Below are positions 1 through 10,261 of a stretch of DNA of 20,199 bases, piece by piece; the stretch's first letter is position 1; every line of letters starts with the position of its first letter. The DNA is from Ruminococcaceae bacterium UBA4306 (GTDB lineage: Bacteria; Bacillota; Clostridia; Oscillospirales; Acutalibacteraceae), in assembly GCA_002394725.1 (NCBI GenBank), contig DGUQ01000022.1:2161-22359 (forward strand), given 5' to 3'. The notes under the pieces were generated by a model, which saw only the letters and a program-made list of their open reading frames with translations, was not told where the DNA came from and searched no databases. Position numbers and translations under genes: made by a program.

Positions 1-882
1 GGCGAGGGCTCGACCTTCACGGTAACGGTCACGCTCAAAAATTGTGAGAACGGCAGCCGCGAACCCTCCACCTTTGACTTCTCGATGATCAAAGCGCTGG
101 TCGTCGATGACGATGAGATCGCTCTGGAACACGCCGGCATTGTCCTCGATGACATCGGCGTATCGGCAGATACCGCCTCCTCGGCGGACGAGGCTCTCTC
201 GGCGATCAAGATCCACTATGCCAAGCAGGAACCGTATAATCTGGTGCTGGTGGACTGGCGAATGCCCGAACGCGGCGGCGCGGATGTAACGCGAGAGATC
301 CGCAGCCGCTACGGAAATGATATCCGCGTGATCGCGCTGACCGCATACGACAGTGATGACGTGATGGAGGAGGCACAGGCGGCAGGGGTCGACGACTTTA
401 TCCCGAAATCCGAATTCCCCACAGTCGTCCGCCGAGAGCTCGAGCGCGTGATGCGCCACGCTGTGAAAGATACCAAGCACGAGATCAGTCTCCAAGGAAA
501 ACGGATCCTGCTCGCGGAGGATATGCCGATCAACGCGGAGATCATGATCCAGCTGTTGTCGATGGAAGGGATGACGACCGACCATGCCGAAAACGGCGAA
601 GAGGCGCTCAAGCTCTTTCAAAAGAGTGAGCTCGATTATTACGACGCTGTGCTGATGGACGTGCGTATGCCTGTCATGGACGGACTGGAGACGGCTGAGG
701 CGATCCGATCGCTGCCCCGTGAGGACGCGCGTACGATCCCGATCATCGCGCTGACGGCAAACGCCTTTGACGAAGATGTACAGCGCTCCTTACAGGCAGG
801 GATGAACGCCCATCTGTCAAAGCCCGTCGAGCCCGATCAGCTGCGCAATACGCTGATGGAGCTGATCGGCGCCAACCGGTAG
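1..882 (+). CDS. Hybrid histidine kinase, C-terminal part with two receiver domains (5' truncated)
   Basis: The frame is already open at base 1, so the gene begins outside the window. The first codons read GEGSTFTVTVTL, the last glycine box and strand of a histidine-kinase ATPase domain, so the ATG at 85 is internal and not the start. Two receiver domains follow. In the first, the phospho-acceptor Asp is the codon at 253-255 (LVLVDWRMP), with ALTAYD and IPKSEF supplying the conserved Thr and Lys. In the second, Asp is at 658-660 (VLMDVRMP) and Lys at 820-822 (HLSKPVEP). Both look competent. The protein ends after the second receiver, with no DNA-binding or enzymatic output domain. Known of the family: such proteins pass phosphate His-Asp-His-Asp through an HPt protein, and one is encoded at 4252. 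Whether the missing N-terminus carries a permease like the kinase at 1309 cannot be seen. Confidence 0.93.
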   Translation, partial: GEGSTFTVTVTLKNCENGSREPSTFDFSMIKALVVDDDEIALEHAGIVLDDIGVSADTASSADEALSAIKIHYAKQEPYNLVLVDWRMPERGGADVTREIRSRYGNDIRVIALTAYDSDDVMEEAQAAGVDDFIPKSEFPTVVRRELERVMRHAVKDTKHEISLQGKRILLAEDMPINAEIMIQLLSMEGMTTDHAENGEEALKLFQKSELDYYDAVLMDVRMPVMDGLETAEAIRSLPREDARTIPIIALTANAFDEDVQRSLQAGMNAHLSKPVEPDQLRNTLMELIGANR

Positions 883-1308: not shown

Positions 1309-4233
1309 ATGATTCGTATCCAAAATACAAAACAGAATAACAGCGGTCTGACACGATATCTGTCACCCCTCCCGGTATGGGCGCTGGCGTTTGGCTGCGC
1401 TGTCGGATGGGGCGCGTTTGTCATGCCGGGTACCACCTTCCTGCCCATCGCGGGACCGTGGGGCGCGGTGATCGGACTGCTGATCGGCGCGGTGATCATG
1501 CTGATCATCGGGCTGAGCTACCACGTGCTGACAAAGCGCTATCCCAACGCCGGCGGCTCCTATACCTTTGCCGCCAAGATACTCGGCAGTGACCATGGCT
1601 TTTTGTGCGCGTGGATGCTGCTGCTTACCTATGCGGCGATCATCTGGGCAAACAGCACGGCGCTGTCGCTGATCGTACGTTTTTTGTTCGGCAATATCTT
1701 CTGCTTCGGCTTTTCCTATCAAATCGCCGGCTATACCGTTTACATGGGCGAGGTGCTGCTGTCCGTCGCGATCATCACCGTAGCCTGCCTGGTCTGTGTC
1801 ATAAGCAAACACCTTGCGGCATGGGTACAGACGGTCTGCGCGCTGTTACTCTTTCTGGGGATCACGGTATGCTTCCTGACGATCGTGATCCGCCGCGGAG
1901 GACTGAGCGGCATCACGCCTGCCTTTTCCTCACAGGGCAAGCCCTTCGATCAGATCATGACGATCGTGATCCTCGCGCCGTGGGCATTCATCGGCTTTGA
2001 GTCGATCTCCCACTCCGCGGAGGAATTCAAATTCAAGCCGAATAAGACCCTGCCGATCCTGATCGGCGCGCTCGCCGCAGGCGCTCTCGCCTATACGATG
2101 CTGACGCTGTGCGCGTCTGTCGCGATCCCCGACGGATTTAACAGCTGGACCGACTATATCACCGCGCTTCCCGACGTGAGCGGTATTCGCGGACTGCCGA
2201 CCTTCCATGCCGCGCAAAAAACAATGGGGACGGCAGGAACGGTCATCATGGGCGTCGCTTCCTTCTGCGGCATCTTCACCGGCTTGATCGGCAACATGAT
2301 CGCGCTCAGCCGGCTGATCTATCGGATGTCCGCCGACAATATGCTGCCCAAACGCATCGGAGCGCTTAACAAAAAGGGGATCCCCACCAAGGCGCTTTGG
2401 ACAGTGGCGCTGATCTCCATGATCATCCCGTTCTTCGGCAGAACCGCGATCGGCTGGATCGTCGACGTCACCACCATCGGCGCGACGATCGTATATATCT
2501 ATGTTTCTGTGTGCGCCGCCGTCATCAGTAAAAGAGAAAAAAAGATGATCCCGATGGTCATCGGCATCATCGGCGCTTTGATCTCCGTCACCTTCGCGAT
2601 ATTCTATCTGCTGCCGCATATTCGATCACAAAGCGAGCTGGCGGCGGAATCCTATATGATCCTGATTATCTGGAGCCTGCTCGGTATGATCGTGTTCCGC
2701 GTACTGATGCAGCGCGATAAATCGCGGCTGATCGGCAAGAGCACCGTCGTCTGGATCATCCTGTTCTGCCTGATCCTGCTGGTCTCGGTCTCATGGGTCA
2801 ACCGTACGACGGTAGATCACGCAAAACAAACAACGGTACAAATGCAGACCACTCACACCAAGCTCGCCGGACAGGCAGGGCTGGAGCCGGACAACGACAG
2901 CGTAAGAGAGACAAACGAGCTGTTGGAAAAACGCTTTACCGCCCTTGCCGAAACGGTACGCAGAAATGTCCTGATCCTGGGCTCTCTGCTGCTCGGCTCT
3001 CTGCTGCTGATATTCAGTATCTTCTCCATTATCCGAAAGCGTGAGCAGCTCATCGAGGCGGAACGGCTGGTCGCGGAGGAAAGCAGCCGCGCCAAGAGCG
3101 CCTTCCTGTCCAATATGAGCCACGATATCCGCACGCCGATGAACGCGATCACCGGCTATACCGCCCTCGCGCTCAAGGAAGAGGGAATCCCTGACTCGAC
3201 CCGAACCTATCTGGAAAAGATCGATACCTCAAGCAAGCATCTCCTGTCCCTGATCAACGATATACTCGACATGAGCCGCATCGAATCGGGCAAGATGGAG
3301 CTCGATCTCGCGCCTGCCGATCTGATCGAGATTTTTGACGAAACGTGCCACATCTTTGATCTGCAAATGCAGGCAAAGCCGCTTACATATACCGTAGACC
3401 ACAGCAGGGTCGACCACCGCTATGTCAAATGTGACAAAAACCGCGTCAACCGCATCCTGCTCAACCTGATCTCCAACGCTTACAAATATACGCCTGCCGG
3501 AGGAAGTGTCACGGCACAGCTCAGCGAGATCGAGATCGCAGGCTCAGAGAGGGTCTACGAGATCAGCGTCAAGGACACGGGCATCGGCATGAGCCCCGAG
3601 TTCGCAGAGCATATCTTTGACTCCTTTGAGCGTGAACGCAGCCGCACCGTTGACGCGATCCAGGGAACGGGTCTGGGGATGGCAATCACTAAGAATCTTG
3701 TCGACATCATGGGCGGTTCGATATTGGTACAGACCGAACAGGACAAGGGCACGACCTTTACGATCCGTCTGAGCTTCCCGATCGTCAAAAAAGAGGACGT
3801 CCATCCACCCACGGAGACTGCCGAGGAGGAAAAAGCGGCGCTCACGGGCGCTCATATCCTTTTGGCGGAGGATAATCCGATCAACAGCGAGATCGCCACG
3901 ATGATCCTCACACAGGAGGGCTTCACCGTAGATCATGCCGAAAACGGACAGATCGCCGTCGAGATGATGGAGCAAGCTGATGACAGCCGCTATCAGGCGA
4001 TCCTGATGGATATCCAGATGCCCGTGATGAACGGCTATGACGCGACGCGCAAGATCCGCGCGTTGTCGGGTGAAAAAGCCAACATTCCCATCATCGCCGT
4101 TACGGCGAATACCTTTGTAACCGACCGGCAAGAGGCCTTTGACGCAGGGATAAACGCGCATATCGCCAAGCCCTTCAACCCCGACGAGCTGGTTCAAACA
4201 CTCGTCGAGCAAATTAACAACGACAAAACCTGA
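1309..4233 (+). CDS. APC-family permease fused to a hybrid histidine kinase
   Basis: This is a single uninterrupted 974-residue protein. Residues ~18-470 are a polytopic membrane module resembling the amino acid-polyamine-organocation (APC) superfamily. The first helix has the glycine-rich GWGAFVMPG (33-41) and the sixth has FIGFES (GFE at 229-231), the two substrate-contact regions of these transporters. A further helix (~478-497), a 56-residue external loop and a last helix (~554-575) lead into a short coiled coil. The kinase core has its phospho-acceptor His605 in SNMSHDIRTP, Asn723 in the N box and Asp756 in the DTGIG box, so it looks active. A receiver domain follows, with Asp901 (ILMDIQMP) and Lys954. 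There is no PAS domain and no DNA-binding domain. Inference: the permease part senses or transports an amino acid-like ligand and controls the kinase, by analogy with the SSS-family transporter-kinase CbrA. The start has GAAGG 6 bases upstream. The HPt gene follows after 18 bases. Confidence 0.9.
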   Translation: MIRIQNTKQNNSGLTRYLSPLPVWALAFGCAVGWGAFVMPGTTFLPIAGPWGAVIGLLIGAVIMLIIGLSYHVLTKRYPNAGGSYTFAAKILGSDHGFLCAWMLLLTYAAIIWANSTALSLIVRFLFGNIFCFGFSYQIAGYTVYMGEVLLSVAIITVACLVCVISKHLAAWVQTVCALLLFLGITVCFLTIVIRRGGLSGITPAFSSQGKPFDQIMTIVILAPWAFIGFESISHSAEEFKFKPNKTLPILIGALAAGALAYTMLTLCASVAIPDGFNSWTDYITALPDVSGIRGLPTFHAAQKTMGTAGTVIMGVASFCGIFTGLIGNMIALSRLIYRMSADNMLPKRIGALNKKGIPTKALWTVALISMIIPFFGRTAIGWIVDVTTIGATIVYIYVSVCAAVISKREKKMIPMVIGIIGALISVTFAIFYLLPHIRSQSELAAESYMILIIWSLLGMIVFRVLMQRDKSRLIGKSTVVWIILFCLILLVSVSWVNRTTVDHAKQTTVQMQTTHTKLAGQAGLEPDNDSVRETNELLEKRFTALAETVRRNVLILGSLLLGSLLLIFSIFSIIRKREQLIEAERLVAEESSRAKSAFLSNMSHDIRTPMNAITGYTALALKEEGIPDSTRTYLEKIDTSSKHLLSLINDILDMSRIESGKMELDLAPADLIEIFDETCHIFDLQMQAKPLTYTVDHSRVDHRYVKCDKNRVNRILLNLISNAYKYTPAGGSVTAQLSEIEIAGSERVYEISVKDTGIGMSPEFAEHIFDSFERERSRTVDAIQGTGLGMAITKNLVDIMGGSILVQTEQDKGTTFTIRLSFPIVKKEDVHPPTETAEEEKAALTGAHILLAEDNPINSEIATMILTQEGFTVDHAENGQIAVEMMEQADDSRYQAILMDIQMPVMNGYDATRKIRALSGEKANIPIIAVTANTFVTDRQEAFDAGINAHIAKPFNPDELVQTLVEQINNDKT

Positions 4234-4251: not shown

Positions 4252-4596
4252 ATGATAACGATGGAAAAGCTCAAGGAATTCGGCGCCGATACCGAAGAGG
4301 GACTCGGTCGCTGCTACGGCAACGAGGCGCTGTACCTGCGTCTGGTCGGCATGATCCCCGATGAAGCGAATTTTGACAAGCTGAAAGGCTCGCTGGAGCA
4401 GAATGATCTCGACAGCGCGTTTGAGGCGGCTCACGCACTCAAGGGCGTACTCGGCAACCTTTCGCTCACCCCGATGTTCGAGCAATGCTCCGAGATCACG
4501 GAGCTACTGCGCGCGCGCACCGAGATGGATTATACGCCGCTTTTGGAAAAGCTGATGGATCAGAGAAATACCCTCAGCGCTTTGTGCGCGGAGTAA
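4252..4596 (+). CDS. HPt histidine phosphotransfer protein
   Basis: This is a small, all-helical protein of 114 residues. AAHALKGVLGNL is the hallmark of HPt domains, and His61 is the expected phosphorylated residue. Such proteins carry phosphate between the receiver of a hybrid kinase and the receiver of another protein in the cytoplasm. The gene lies 18 bases behind the permease-kinase, with AGGAAG at 4240-4245 six bases before the ATG, so the two are almost certainly co-transcribed. A second ATG at 4261 has a poorer ribosome site. The length is that of a stand-alone HPt module, with no extra domain. The final receiver partner is not encoded in the window. The two receivers of the kinase at the left edge and the one at 1309 are the only visible candidates. 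Confidence 0.88.
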   Translation: MITMEKLKEFGADTEEGLGRCYGNEALYLRLVGMIPDEANFDKLKGSLEQNDLDSAFEAAHALKGVLGNLSLTPMFEQCSEITELLRARTEMDYTPLLEKLMDQRNTLSALCAE

Positions 4597-4669: not shown

Positions 4670-6118
4670 TTACTCTCCGTTATAGCGCAGGCAGAGCATG
4701 GTCAGATCATCGAACTGGACAGCGTCGCCGACAAACTTGTTGACCTCATGATGAATGTTCTCGAGGACCTCCTCCGGCGAGCCGTCGGACTTGATGTTCA
4801 GCGCCGCGATCATCCTGTCGGTGCCGAACTGCTCGTTGTCAGCGTTGGTCGCTTCGGGAATACCGTCGGTGTAGAGGAAGATGGAATCACCCTTATTCAG
4901 CGTGAGCTCATAGTCCTTGTACCGTACGCCCTCCATACCGCCGACGACAAAGCCATGCTTATCCTTGAACAGCTCATACTCTCCGCCGCTCCTGCGGATC
5001 ACAGGATACTCGTGTCCGGCGTTGGCGGCGATCATATGACCTGTTTCGATATTGAGGATACCCAGCCATACGGTGACGAACATCTCCGCCTGGTTATTGC
5101 TGCAGATACGGTTGTTGACAAATTCGAGGATCTCGGCAGGGGTGCCGCCCATGAGCGCCCTGTCGTTGATCAGGATCTTGGACGCCATCATGAACAGCGC
5201 CGCAGGTACGCCCTTGCCCGACACATCCGCCATCACCATCGCGAGGTGCTTGTCATCGATCAGGAAAAAGTCATAGAAGTCGCCGCCGACCTCCTTGGCG
5301 GTATACATACCGGCATAAACGTCAAATTGTTTTTGCTCGGGGAAGGCAGGGAAGATATTGGGCACCATGCCGTTCTGGATCTGAGTGGCGGTATTCAGCT
5401 CCGCCTTGACATTGGCGGACATACGCGCGATCTTATCCTGCCTGAGCACCATATCATGACCGTTCTTGGCGATAAATACAGCGATGAAGCCGATGACAGC
5501 GAACACCAGCAGTCGCGGCAAAAAGCCGTTGACCATCATGCTGACCACCGCTTTTGAGGGATCGATACCGAGCGCCATGACCGCGTCACGCAGCTTTTTC
5601 TCGATCATCATGACCGTACCGCTTGCAGGCGAGGGATAGAAGTTGAGATCGATGATACCGTACAGCACGCTCAGCACGCTGCCGGCTGCCGCACACAATA
5701 CCGTCAGGATCGAGATCATCACAGTGAAGCCCTTGGAAAAATAGCGGCTCGACAGCAGCACGGGCAGGATCATGATCAGGATAACGTTGTGATTGAGGAT
5801 GCTGAACAGCTGGGTGCAGACAAACGACAGCACGATAACCATCACATATTTGAGCCAGCGTCGTTTTCCCTTGAATTTAAGGTACAGCACGATCGGCACG
5901 GCGAATTCGACCAGCCCCGCTATCGTCAGGATGTTCATCCTGCTCTTGGCGACAGTGAAAATCCCTGCCATATTCAGCACCCATGACACGATCAGGATCA
6001 CCGCGCAGGTAAGAATGACATAAAAGGAAAGGCGGTTCGCCGCATAATCGTTTTCTTCAAAAACCGCCTTGGTGTCCTCCGATTCGTATATTTTAAAATA
6101 TTCTTTGATTTTTCCCAT
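4670..6118 (-). CDS. Membrane-anchored SpoIIE/RsbU-type PP2C serine phosphatase
   Basis: The 482-residue protein has about six hydrophobic segments in its first ~225 residues (for example ~31-52, 63-80, 129-152, 205-225) and then a cytoplasmic PP2C-like domain. The domain shows the metal-binding motifs in order: GGDFYD (Asp280), ADVSGKG, NAGH, YTDG and DDLTML (Asp470/471). Known of the family: these enzymes remove phosphate from anti-sigma-factor antagonists (SpoIIAA/RsbV type) and so release an alternative sigma factor. The membrane part presumably senses a signal. The start at 6118 is chosen because AAAGGTGATC lies directly before it. An upstream in-frame ATG at 6157 would add 13 residues without a comparable ribosome site. 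The gene faces the kinase-HPt pair and shares its terminator. No antagonist or sigma gene is in view, so the target is unknown. Confidence 0.88.
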   Translation of the reverse strand: MGKIKEYFKIYESEDTKAVFEENDYAANRLSFYVILTCAVILIVSWVLNMAGIFTVAKSRMNILTIAGLVEFAVPIVLYLKFKGKRRWLKYVMVIVLSFVCTQLFSILNHNVILIMILPVLLSSRYFSKGFTVMISILTVLCAAAGSVLSVLYGIIDLNFYPSPASGTVMMIEKKLRDAVMALGIDPSKAVVSMMVNGFLPRLLVFAVIGFIAVFIAKNGHDMVLRQDKIARMSANVKAELNTATQIQNGMVPNIFPAFPEQKQFDVYAGMYTAKEVGGDFYDFFLIDDKHLAMVMADVSGKGVPAALFMMASKILINDRALMGGTPAEILEFVNNRICSNNQAEMFVTVWLGILNIETGHMIAANAGHEYPVIRRSGGEYELFKDKHGFVVGGMEGVRYKDYELTLNKGDSIFLYTDGIPEATNADNEQFGTDRMIAALNIKSDGSPEEVLENIHHEVNKFVGDAVQFDDLTMLCLRYNGE

Positions 6119-6195
6119 TTGATCACCTTTGTTTTTCATCTTTCCGACCGCTCTCAAGGCGGTATTTCGGCTGATTGTCAGCCCCGATATTTATG

Positions 6196-8077: not shown

Positions 8078-10261
8078 ATGTTCAAGAAGTTTTTATCACT
8101 TCTGTTAGCGGTGATAATGGTCGTTTCCGTGATGGCAGTCGGTGTTGTGTCTTCCACTGCGGCACCTTTCGGCGGATTCTCTCCAACAGAAGCGCCGTGG
8201 TATCCTACTGAAGAGCCAATCCCGACGGAGCCGGATCTTCCTCACGATCCTTCCAACTATATCTTTCTTAACGTTGATGGTGCTCTCTATGAGGTTGAAG
8301 CAGGAAGCAACCATACATACGCGTATTACCTCAACGTCTATAACTGTATATGCGGTGTAGACGCAAAAACCACATGGGATGCTCCGTGTATCGAAATAGT
8401 TAGCGATCCCACCTTTCCCGTATTTGGAAACAAACGCGGTGATATTGATGACGAAGATACCGCAGGTGATGTAGTCTACCAGTACCTCAGCGACACCGAT
8501 GGTAATATCGATGAGATCAGATTCAATTGGACACAGGCTGAGGGTGTCACGTTTGACAGTTCTGATTCGATGCTGATTACCTTCAAGATACATATAGCGG
8601 AAGACGCTCCTGCCGGAATATACAATATCCATACGGATATCAAGGTGCTGGAGGGCGAACATGAAGAGAAGCTGATTTTTGAAGGAGTTGACTGTAATCC
8701 CGGACGCATCTACGGAAGAATGGGCATGCTGGACGGTGCTCCGGGTGTTTTGGAAACCACCAACTATACTGTCGATGAACAAGCCTTTACAACCTATTCA
8801 TACGAGGATAAAACCTTTACCGTCAATGCTGATCATAATGACGATCTGACGTACAGCAAGTTCAGAGCGCTGTATATTGACGGTATGCCGGTGAGCTATA
8901 ATAATTTTACAAAGGAAAGCGGTTCGTTAAAACTCACCCTAAAAGCGGATTACATGCAACGCATGGAATGCGGCGACCATGATGTGCGGTTTGTTTTCTC
9001 TGACGGTGATGCGAATAGCGTACTACATATTCTGCAGGGAAGTCCGACGCCCCCCGAAGAACCTGATGACATTCCCAGTGTAGGTGGAAAAACAATCAAC
9101 TTCTATTTGTACTCTACCGGATGGTCTTCGAACAGTGAGGTGCTATTTTACGTCTACGAAGTGTCGACCGGAGAGGGATTGATTCCATGGGGATCTAAAA
9201 AACTGATCGGTACTAACAGAGGCGATGGGATATGCTCTTATGATCCTTCATTGATGAACCTTGTACCCGGAATACAATATGCAATTATTTTTTATGACAG
9301 AAAGTCAGGAGACCAAACCTACGATCTACTCTTTGATACATCTTGTCTGGGTGATATCGCCTATTGCACCGGTAATAGGTTAGAGAATCCGGTCGATTGC
9401 AATAAAACATGTAAGGAAGCAAAATGGAAGAATTCTTCCTTAGGCTCCCGACTTCAAATCACCTCGATTGGTAACGTAATTGGTGAGACCTGCCCGAGAC
9501 ATACGTCACCATATGCGATGTTTGTGCAGTTCCTGAAATACACACTGAATAACGCGCGAGATTACTCCGGCAAAACCGATCAGCAGCTATTGGATCATAT
9601 CGCGAGCCGGTTGAATCTGTCCAATGATGACGTCAGCAAGGCGATTGCGGAAGCCGGAGTGTGGGTCAATTGGACGCCGCCATATGTTCCTCCTACTGAA
9701 CCGCCAATCGACAGCTATGGTTATATTCCGGGTGAATACTACCTTACCGGTTCCATCAACGGCGATAACAGTGGAACAACTAATGTCCACAAGGGGTTAC
9801 GCTTTACGGACTATTCTGCTGACTCCATGATTCTGGAAAGCGTCAGACTGACACAGGGTGATGTTGTGAGGGTGGCACGGTATAACGGCAACAACACCTT
9901 TACCGTCTATCCCGACGGCATCGGCAGAGAAGTCGCGATCACACAGTCCGGTCGATATGATTTCTACTTTAAGCCGTATGAACTCGGCAACGGAAACTAC
10001 TGGTACATCACGCCGTCCTATCGCGGAGAGGTCGAAGCCTATCTCCTCGGTGACGCGGACGGTAACGGCAAGGTCGATGCCGCGGATGTGACCCATATCC
10101 TGCGCTATCTCACTCAAACCGATACGCCTTTTACCAAGAGCGAGCTGATGCGCGGTGATGTTGACGGCAGCGGCGATTTGGAGGTGACCGACGTCACCGC
10201 GATCCAATATTATCTTGCTCGTATCAATACGCCGTATCCGATCGGCTTGAAAACAGATTAA
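8078..10261 (+). CDS. Secreted modular protein with C-terminal type I dockerin
   Basis: The 727-residue protein begins with a lysine-led hydrophobic signal peptide, with likely cleavage near residue 29. A Pro/Thr/Glu linker (~36-58) follows, then a beta-sandwich resembling cohesin-like folds (~60-215, with ITFKIHIAEDAPAG). Next is an Ig-like, X2-type segment (~235-322), a second Pro linker, a Cys-rich segment of unknown function (~336-530), a third linker (~533-545) and a small beta domain resembling carbohydrate-binding modules (~548-650). The dockerin (655-727) has two calcium loops: DADGNGKVDAAD (659-670) and DVDGSGDLEVTD (694-705). Dockerins plug into cohesins of cellulosome- or amylosome-like scaffolds outside the cell. 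No glycosidase, peptidase or esterase domain is recognisable, so it may be structural or bind a substrate. AGGAGG (8064-8069) sits 8 bases before the ATG. Much of the gene is visibly more AT-rich than its neighbours, while the dockerin end is GC-rich like them. Confidence 0.88.
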   Translation: MFKKFLSLLLAVIMVVSVMAVGVVSSTAAPFGGFSPTEAPWYPTEEPIPTEPDLPHDPSNYIFLNVDGALYEVEAGSNHTYAYYLNVYNCICGVDAKTTWDAPCIEIVSDPTFPVFGNKRGDIDDEDTAGDVVYQYLSDTDGNIDEIRFNWTQAEGVTFDSSDSMLITFKIHIAEDAPAGIYNIHTDIKVLEGEHEEKLIFEGVDCNPGRIYGRMGMLDGAPGVLETTNYTVDEQAFTTYSYEDKTFTVNADHNDDLTYSKFRALYIDGMPVSYNNFTKESGSLKLTLKADYMQRMECGDHDVRFVFSDGDANSVLHILQGSPTPPEEPDDIPSVGGKTINFYLYSTGWSSNSEVLFYVYEVSTGEGLIPWGSKKLIGTNRGDGICSYDPSLMNLVPGIQYAIIFYDRKSGDQTYDLLFDTSCLGDIAYCTGNRLENPVDCNKTCKEAKWKNSSLGSRLQITSIGNVIGETCPRHTSPYAMFVQFLKYTLNNARDYSGKTDQQLLDHIASRLNLSNDDVSKAIAEAGVWVNWTPPYVPPTEPPIDSYGYIPGEYYLTGSINGDNSGTTNVHKGLRFTDYSADSMILESVRLTQGDVVRVARYNGNNTFTVYPDGIGREVAITQSGRYDFYFKPYELGNGNYWYITPSYRGEVEAYLLGDADGNGKVDAADVTHILRYLTQTDTPFTKSELMRGDVDGSGDLEVTDVTAIQYYLARINTPYPIGLKTD

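Follow-up and report, generated by a model that had tools for sequence, protein, structure and literature searches.

The 20,199-nucleotide stretch of contig DGUQ01000022.1 from Ruminococcaceae bacterium UBA4306, a bacterium of gut or rumen type, analysed here (the window) carries, at 1309-4233 on the forward strand, one unbroken open reading frame whose 974-amino acid (AA) product joins an APC-type transporter core, by way of a hairpin, to HisKA, HATPase_c and receiver domains. This protein, the APC-kinase, is read as a transporter-derived sensor kinase in which an amino-acid-like ligand in the APC pocket would act on the kinase and, through a stand-alone HPt phosphotransfer protein, on the hydrolysis of cyclic di-GMP (c-di-GMP); the probability of this reading is put at roughly 0.6. 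It belongs to an apparently undescribed family in which one transporter core is plugged into several outputs, seemingly tied to c-di-GMP. The architecture, the conservation, the single clade formed among transporters, the fusions to histidine kinase, GGDEF and HD-GYP outputs, and the association with HPt and c-di-GMP-regulator genes are computed results. The features of the gene, including its transmembrane (TM) segments, are as follows:

1309..4233, + strand: APC-type core and hybrid histidine kinase, 974 AA (open frame, Pfam, full-length relatives)
1348..2718, + strand: APC core, residues about 14-470, with a LeuT-type fold
1405..1431, + strand: TM1 segment GWGAFVMPG, residues 33-41 (G33 and G35 in 49/49 fused rows, W34 in 48/49)
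1978..2016, + strand: TM6 segment PWAFIGFESISHS, residues 224-236 (W225 and G229 in 49/49 fused rows)
2743..3033, + strand: connector, made up of TM13 (479-497), an outer loop of about 56 residues (498-553) and TM14 (554-575) (hydropathy, AlphaFold2)
3091..3291, + strand: HisKA, PF00512, 73.4 bits, with phospho-acceptor H605 at 3121-3123
3433..3777, + strand: HATPase_c, PF02518, 89 bits, with N723, D756 and G786
3856..4203, + strand: receiver domain, PF00072, 91.8 bits, with D901

Using Pfam, both AA_permease_2 (PF13520) and AA_permease are detected in the 974-AA protein, the former at residues 19-436 with 107.1 bits against a cut-off of 27 and covering positions 2-407 of the 427 in the model; HisKA (595-661), HATPase_c (709-823) and Response_reg (850-965) also score above their cut-offs. 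All of the catalytic residues sought have been found -- H605, N-box N723, G1 D756, G2 G786, and receiver D901 and K954 -- and the H, N, G1 and G2 boxes and receiver Asp/Lys expected of a hybrid histidine kinase are thus complete. At the position of H605, 96 of 99 kinase rows have H and the rest are gaps; at that of D901, 97 of 99 have D, again with gaps in the others. By hydropathy, TM13 spans about 479-497 and TM14 about 554-575, and AlphaFold2 gives a helical hairpin after the core (helices 480-522 and 530-623), the last helix of which runs continuously into the first kinase helix. A sequence-only reading of this DNA had described a single frame joining an APC core, with intact GWGAFVMPG and GFE regions, to a full kinase and receiver, with an extra helix pair and a 56-residue external loop between the halves, and had named AA_permease_2, HisKA, HATPase_c and Response_reg as the domains to look for. 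Its description is borne out by the frame, the Pfam scores and the catalytic residues, with GWGAFVMPG at 33-41, GFES at 229-232, and a helix pair on which hydropathy agrees and AlphaFold2 gives the hairpin; its interpretation, sensing of an amino acid by transport or binding, is partly supported overall, and the HPt gene at 4252-4596 (+) had been overlooked. A DUF3290 match at 432-534 was dropped (20.2 bits, under the 31.3 cut-off). For P0001, the best 25 NCBIfam rows are models of kinases or regulators, and not one of them passes its cut-off; no Rfam element reaches the gathering threshold near the gene in the window, L063 or L009; and a promoter scan, with 6 found and 2.5 expected, has not been used.

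A protein database search gave 2914 matches, the best 120 of which cover 77-100% of the query at 49-99% identity and have the same five Pfam matches in 120/120 cases; one of these 120, P0002, is 99% identical and is probably the window's own protein. Where given, organism labels are Ruminococcus, Ruminococcus difficilis (P0014, 78% identical) or Clostridia bacterium, and where named, the proteins are annotated as "amino acid permease" or, once, "Circadian input-output histidine kinase", names under which members of the family are hidden. That a sequencing error fused two genes, which the sequence-only reading had set out as its own refutation, has next to no probability left: since the best 120 of the 2914 relatives are all full fusions, giving at least 120 database clusters with the same joined architecture, the two-gene reading fails for the family as a whole. 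Nothing favours an artefact for the window gene; some short matches could be truly truncated, for example P0129 (511 AA, 5 contigs), while the 46 matches under 600 AA end inside the core or hairpin (by eye, from the last 45 residues) and resemble cut or frameshifted copies. Among the window's own genome and its relatives, the membrane part is found at E <= 1e-40 in 9 of 59 (8/36 genomes in the genus, 1/23 in other families of the order), one of the nine being the window's genome; the frames that contain it are 974-1012 AA long. A class-wide sample has matches in 9 of 391 genomes at E <= 1e-60, seven fused (the window's own included) and two stand-alone, and a phylum-wide sample in 11 of 398 at E <= 1e-45, five with fused and six with stand-alone proteins only. 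The APC-kinase is a patchy but real gene, and many of these genomes are incomplete.

Conservation was computed over 120 rows, with the 99%-identical P0002 left out. The core is strongly conserved, with a mean entropy of 1.28 bits over residues 18-436 against 2.70 in the outer loop and 67 of its 419 positions conserved at >= 98%. TM1 (29-41) and TM6 (224-236), the segments that hold the substrate in APC transporters, each have an entropy of 0.30, compared with 1.30 over residues 18-470, and conservation this strong is reached by only 2.0% and 2.3% of 13-residue stretches. The usual APC form of TM1 is G[ST]G, where the APC-kinase has GWG; W34 is present in 48/49 and W225 in 49/49 fused rows, and stand-alone relatives have W or F at these positions in 12/12 and 11/12 respectively. 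In ApcT-like transporters a TM5 lysine serves proton coupling. The corresponding position, 181, is hydrophobic in fused rows (mostly Leu or Phe) and stand-alone rows alike and Lys in 3/4 outgroup rows; because the stand-alone rows also lack it, this position cannot separate sensor from transporter, and the argument that the sensors have specifically lost the TM5 lysine, and with it transport, was rejected.

Three protein searches retrieved 243 proteins, query included (one further comparison took 111 of them): 137 with the kinase motif, 13 of at least 600 AA without the motif pattern but with HisKA in Pfam, 47 with GGDEF, and the 46 under 600 AA, which are counted neither as fusions nor as stand-alones. 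The search with the membrane part found the same core and hairpin fused to GGDEF also, and a stricter pattern finds the GGDEF motif in 33 proteins, as RIGGDEF in 26 and RVGGDEF in 7; one APC-GGDEF protein, P0123, has a matching hairpin. Two-receiver kinases are seen as well (P0108 by Pfam, P0113 and P0119 by sequence), and an HD-GYP output is found in two loci, L057 (Pfam HD_5 plus AA_permease_2) and L061 (phmmer match to the HD domain of L031, plus HD-GYP-type motifs). An IQ-TREE tree of APC cores, built from 65 chosen rows rather than a full census (49 fused, 12 stand-alone, 4 outgroup permeases), separates all 49 fused cores from the rest by a branch with 100/100 support and, when rooted on the outgroup, nests them within a paraphyletic set of the 12 stand-alone transporters. 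Support is weak (90/40) for the branching order of the stand-alone rows closest to the fused clade (nearest, SA_L062), SA_L064 has an odd composition and a long branch, and the three L094 transporters are represented by two. Seven labels on the tree require at least 10 changes, where the minimum would be 6, so the outputs were exchanged several times; the tree argues for a transporter recruited once as a sensor, its output then being swapped repeatedly. L099 (393-5382) and L100 (6504-11406), from two genomes that share a family outside the class, each have tandem APC-histidine kinases without a receiver; the L099 pair adjoins a protein with a CheB methylesterase domain, and such pairs are possibly two-part sensors feeding a chemotaxis-like protein.

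Two further features of the window bear on the wiring of the system:

4252..4596, + strand: stand-alone HPt phosphotransfer protein, 114 AA, PF01627, 41.9 bits, HALKG motif by eye
85..882, + strand: two receivers (PF00072, two stretches), recognised by comparison as the C-terminal portion of a PAS hybrid kinase encoded upstream

The HPt gene starts 18 bp after the APC-kinase stop; 3' of it lies a repeat, 4614-4624/4645-4655, that looks terminator-like by eye and was not listed by a scanner for loops <= 8. The upstream PAS hybrid kinase is a whole 942-AA gene in L031, L032 and L035, and here the gene contains runs of N, so that its receivers form a frame of their own (cf. L009 1-2185). Sixteen APC-hybrid-kinase loci with flanks have been compared (the window, L030-L035, L048-L053, L059, L060 and L102), leaving out L029, whose contig ends near the gene, and L099 and L100. 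An HPt match lies within 12 of the 16 stretches (tblastn, one query); the L053 match is weak (E 9e-5), and that of L059 adjoins the regulator, a long way from the kinase. This regulator, REC-GGDEF-EAL, lies inside the stretch of 10 of the 16 loci, adjoining or one gene off in nine and 5.6 kb off in L059. The order in L031 is PAS hybrid kinase with two receivers, APC-kinase, REC-GGDEF-EAL, HPt, TM-HD-GYP, TM-GGDEF; the window's genome has REC-GGDEF-EAL, HD-GYP and TM-GGDEF in an L031-like order on another contig, its REC-GGDEF-EAL being 76% identical to the L031 counterpart. At E <= 1e-100 the regulator is found in 9/9 genomes with an APC-kinase against 3/50 without (Fisher p 1.8e-8, or 1.5e-6 within the genus, both ignoring relatedness). 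In the five regulators tested, the EAL and DDF motifs are present and there is no GGDEF-type motif; with GGDEF degenerate and EAL and DDF kept, they are read as putative phosphodiesterases, and the full list of EAL catalytic residues was checked by eye in one of them. Of five APC-GGDEF loci, L055 and L058 have a REC-GGDEF-EAL neighbour and L056 a partial GGDEF-EAL match, and none is seen in L054 (a short contig) or L101.

Two families of transporter-kinase are described in the sources cited here. The SLC5-STAC kinases (CbrA, CrbS/MxtR) likewise place an N-terminal LeuT-fold transporter on a histidine kinase, and SLC5-STAC, like the APC core, is also fused to diguanylate cyclases (PMC7096432); CbrA, a rare transceptor of SLC5-STAC-PAS-kinase build (PMC13022988), has kinase activity that is unaffected by histidine (PMC7096432). 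The window protein shares their HisKA and HATPase_c, but its transporter is APC (PF13520) rather than SLC5/SSS, the SSS model giving no Pfam match at E <= 0.001; its connector appears to be a TM hairpin leading directly into the kinase instead of STAC plus PAS domains (STAC has no match in the Pfam scan, whose library was unchecked for a STAC model, and the region is the AlphaFold2 hairpin); and its neighbours are HPt and REC-GGDEF-EAL, where CbrA has the regulator CbrB. In Ks-Amt5, too, a transporter fold has been recruited as the ligand sensor of a histidine kinase without HAMP (PMC5764959); it binds ammonium, has lost transport and signals (PMC5764959; PMC8534201). It differs in having an Amt domain and a functional trimer, with no TM hairpin or receiver described in the accessible part of PMC5764959, and the Amt model has no Pfam match at E <= 0.001 in the window protein. 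The APC-kinase stands outside both families but should work like them. AdiC, GkApcT, ApcT and CAT1, themselves APC-family transporters, carry no signalling domain. Gap1-type transceptors are eukaryotic and have no fused kinase. As signalling amino acid permeases, yeast transceptors such as Gap1 nevertheless resemble the APC-kinase as read here (PMC11109136). The sequence-only reading knew of no characterised APC version of the CbrA-type kinases, and the literature as seen by title or abstract start agrees: at that depth no paper on an APC-family kinase, GGDEF or HD-GYP fusion was found, subscription literature lying mostly outside this scope, so that an earlier mention is possible, and the accessible parts of PMC7918813, PMC11237719, PMC1183210 and PMC11109136 mention no APC-kinase.

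In the mechanism proposed for the APC-kinase, a small amino-acid-like ligand would enter the core and bind where TM1 and TM6 are unwound; core movement would be relayed through the TM13/TM14 hairpin and alter autophosphorylation of H605; phosphate would then pass from H605 to D901, to the His of the adjoining HPt and to the receiver of REC-GGDEF-EAL, whose EAL domain would degrade c-di-GMP. The phosphorelay chain is drawn from gene order, co-occurrence and motifs. Several observations weigh against this reading. HPt and regulator are inferred as partners from position only; the 16 loci are not independent, as at least 8 belong to one genus; REC-GGDEF-EAL lies outside the fetched stretch in six of them (the window, L032 with its short flank, L035, L052, L060, L102); L099 and L100 have neither an HPt nor a REC-GGDEF-EAL match in their stretches; and three genomes carry the regulator without an APC-kinase. 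The fused pocket may also have changed, given core differences at 234-235, 327 and 329: S234 (40/49) and H235 (42/49) of the fused rows stand against P and Q in 12/12 stand-alone rows, I327 (38/49) against N in 11/12, and N329 (37/49) against F in 11/12. Ligand, transport or kinase data were found for no member of the family.

A working transporter that also signals, importing its ligand while the kinase reads flux or occupancy as in CbrA, is a possible though unlikely alternative. It would fit the complete and strongly conserved core, the fact that this protein (the 1309-2739 part) is the sole PF13520 protein found at E <= 1e-15 in its own 79%-complete genome, and the precedent of CbrA, which combines histidine transport with kinase activity (PMC7096432); against it are the mostly Leu or Phe residues at the TM5 lysine position, a point tempered by the stand-alone rows, and Ks-Amt5, where a kinase-fused transporter has lost transport (PMC5764959). 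That the APC core is a membrane anchor only, with the signal read elsewhere, such as at the outer hairpin or the membrane, is improbable: the hairpin would protrude from the membrane, and CbrA can activate its target even when the SLC5 domain is absent (PMC7096432), but conservation is among the lowest in the outer loop and among the highest in TM1 and TM6, and the core is kept ahead of every output type seen. Reverse flow, in which the kinase would control the permease and phosphorylation gate uptake, is more improbable still, as GGDEF or HD-GYP replace the kinase in other members and HPt and receiver genes lie nearby, all pointing to signal output; physical fusion permits it, and no other support is seen.

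For the ligand, the stand-alone cousins (30-39% identity to the window protein) provide a lead, their neighbouring genes having been picked by eye and then tested against model cut-offs. Above cut-off are a sulfoacetaldehyde acetyltransferase in L093, D-cysteate sulfo-lyase and cysteate racemase in L096, a CoA-acylating methylmalonate-semialdehyde dehydrogenase and class III aminotransferase in L098, and alanine dehydrogenase in L095 and L064. The neighbours are thus enzymes of the taurine, cysteate, beta-alanine-type and alanine kinds, indicating small alpha-, beta- or sulfonated amino acids in five of the eight stand-alone loci, whose transporters are candidate amino-sulfonate/beta-amino-acid importers. 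The lead is weakened by L094, whose dehydrogenase falls just under cut-off, by L062, whose alanyl-tRNA-editing-like neighbour is under it, and by L097, with nothing telling by eye; none of the NCBIfam transporter models passed cut-off for four stand-alone transporters or P0123. Taurine is a lead only, because these neighbours belong to 30-39% cousins and SA_L062 has no catabolic neighbour above cut-off among those tested. The stand-alone APC transporters of L093, L095, L096, L098 and L064 are of the G[WF]G type, and those of L093-L095 occur as tandem copies. More speculatively, and with the odds against it, a clade of stand-alone small beta/omega-amino-acid and amino-sulfonate transporters (taurine, cysteate, beta-alanine, alanine) may have been converted once to a membrane sensor and then attached repeatedly to hybrid kinases, diguanylate cyclases and HD-GYP phosphodiesterases, as a dedicated nutrient-to-c-di-GMP input of anaerobic gut and rumen Clostridia -- an APC counterpart of SLC5-STAC with its own coupling hairpin.

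How an alternating-access cycle is turned into a signal is an open question for the few known bacterial transceptors. This family supplies natural test pairs, stand-alone transporters and fused sensors on neighbouring branches, and further test material in a single sensor core that a common type of connector links to several outputs; it is also a candidate for an input to the c-di-GMP control of gut Clostridia.

Between the receiver gene and the APC-kinase gene lies an element resembling a miniature inverted-repeat transposable element (880-1256), with 23-nucleotide inverted ends, 91% complementary, and, counting this copy, 33 matching pieces in the genome; the gap between the two genes is 426 bp in the window and 18-88 bp in three relatives. 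A 727-AA protein at 8078-10261 ends in a type I dockerin (PF00404, 29.1 bits), a domain that occurs in cellulosome-type fibre degraders. A SpoIIE-type phosphatase (PF07228) is encoded at 4670-6157 on the reverse strand, and relatives of it are found in the APC-kinase stretches of L030, L031, L032 and L034.
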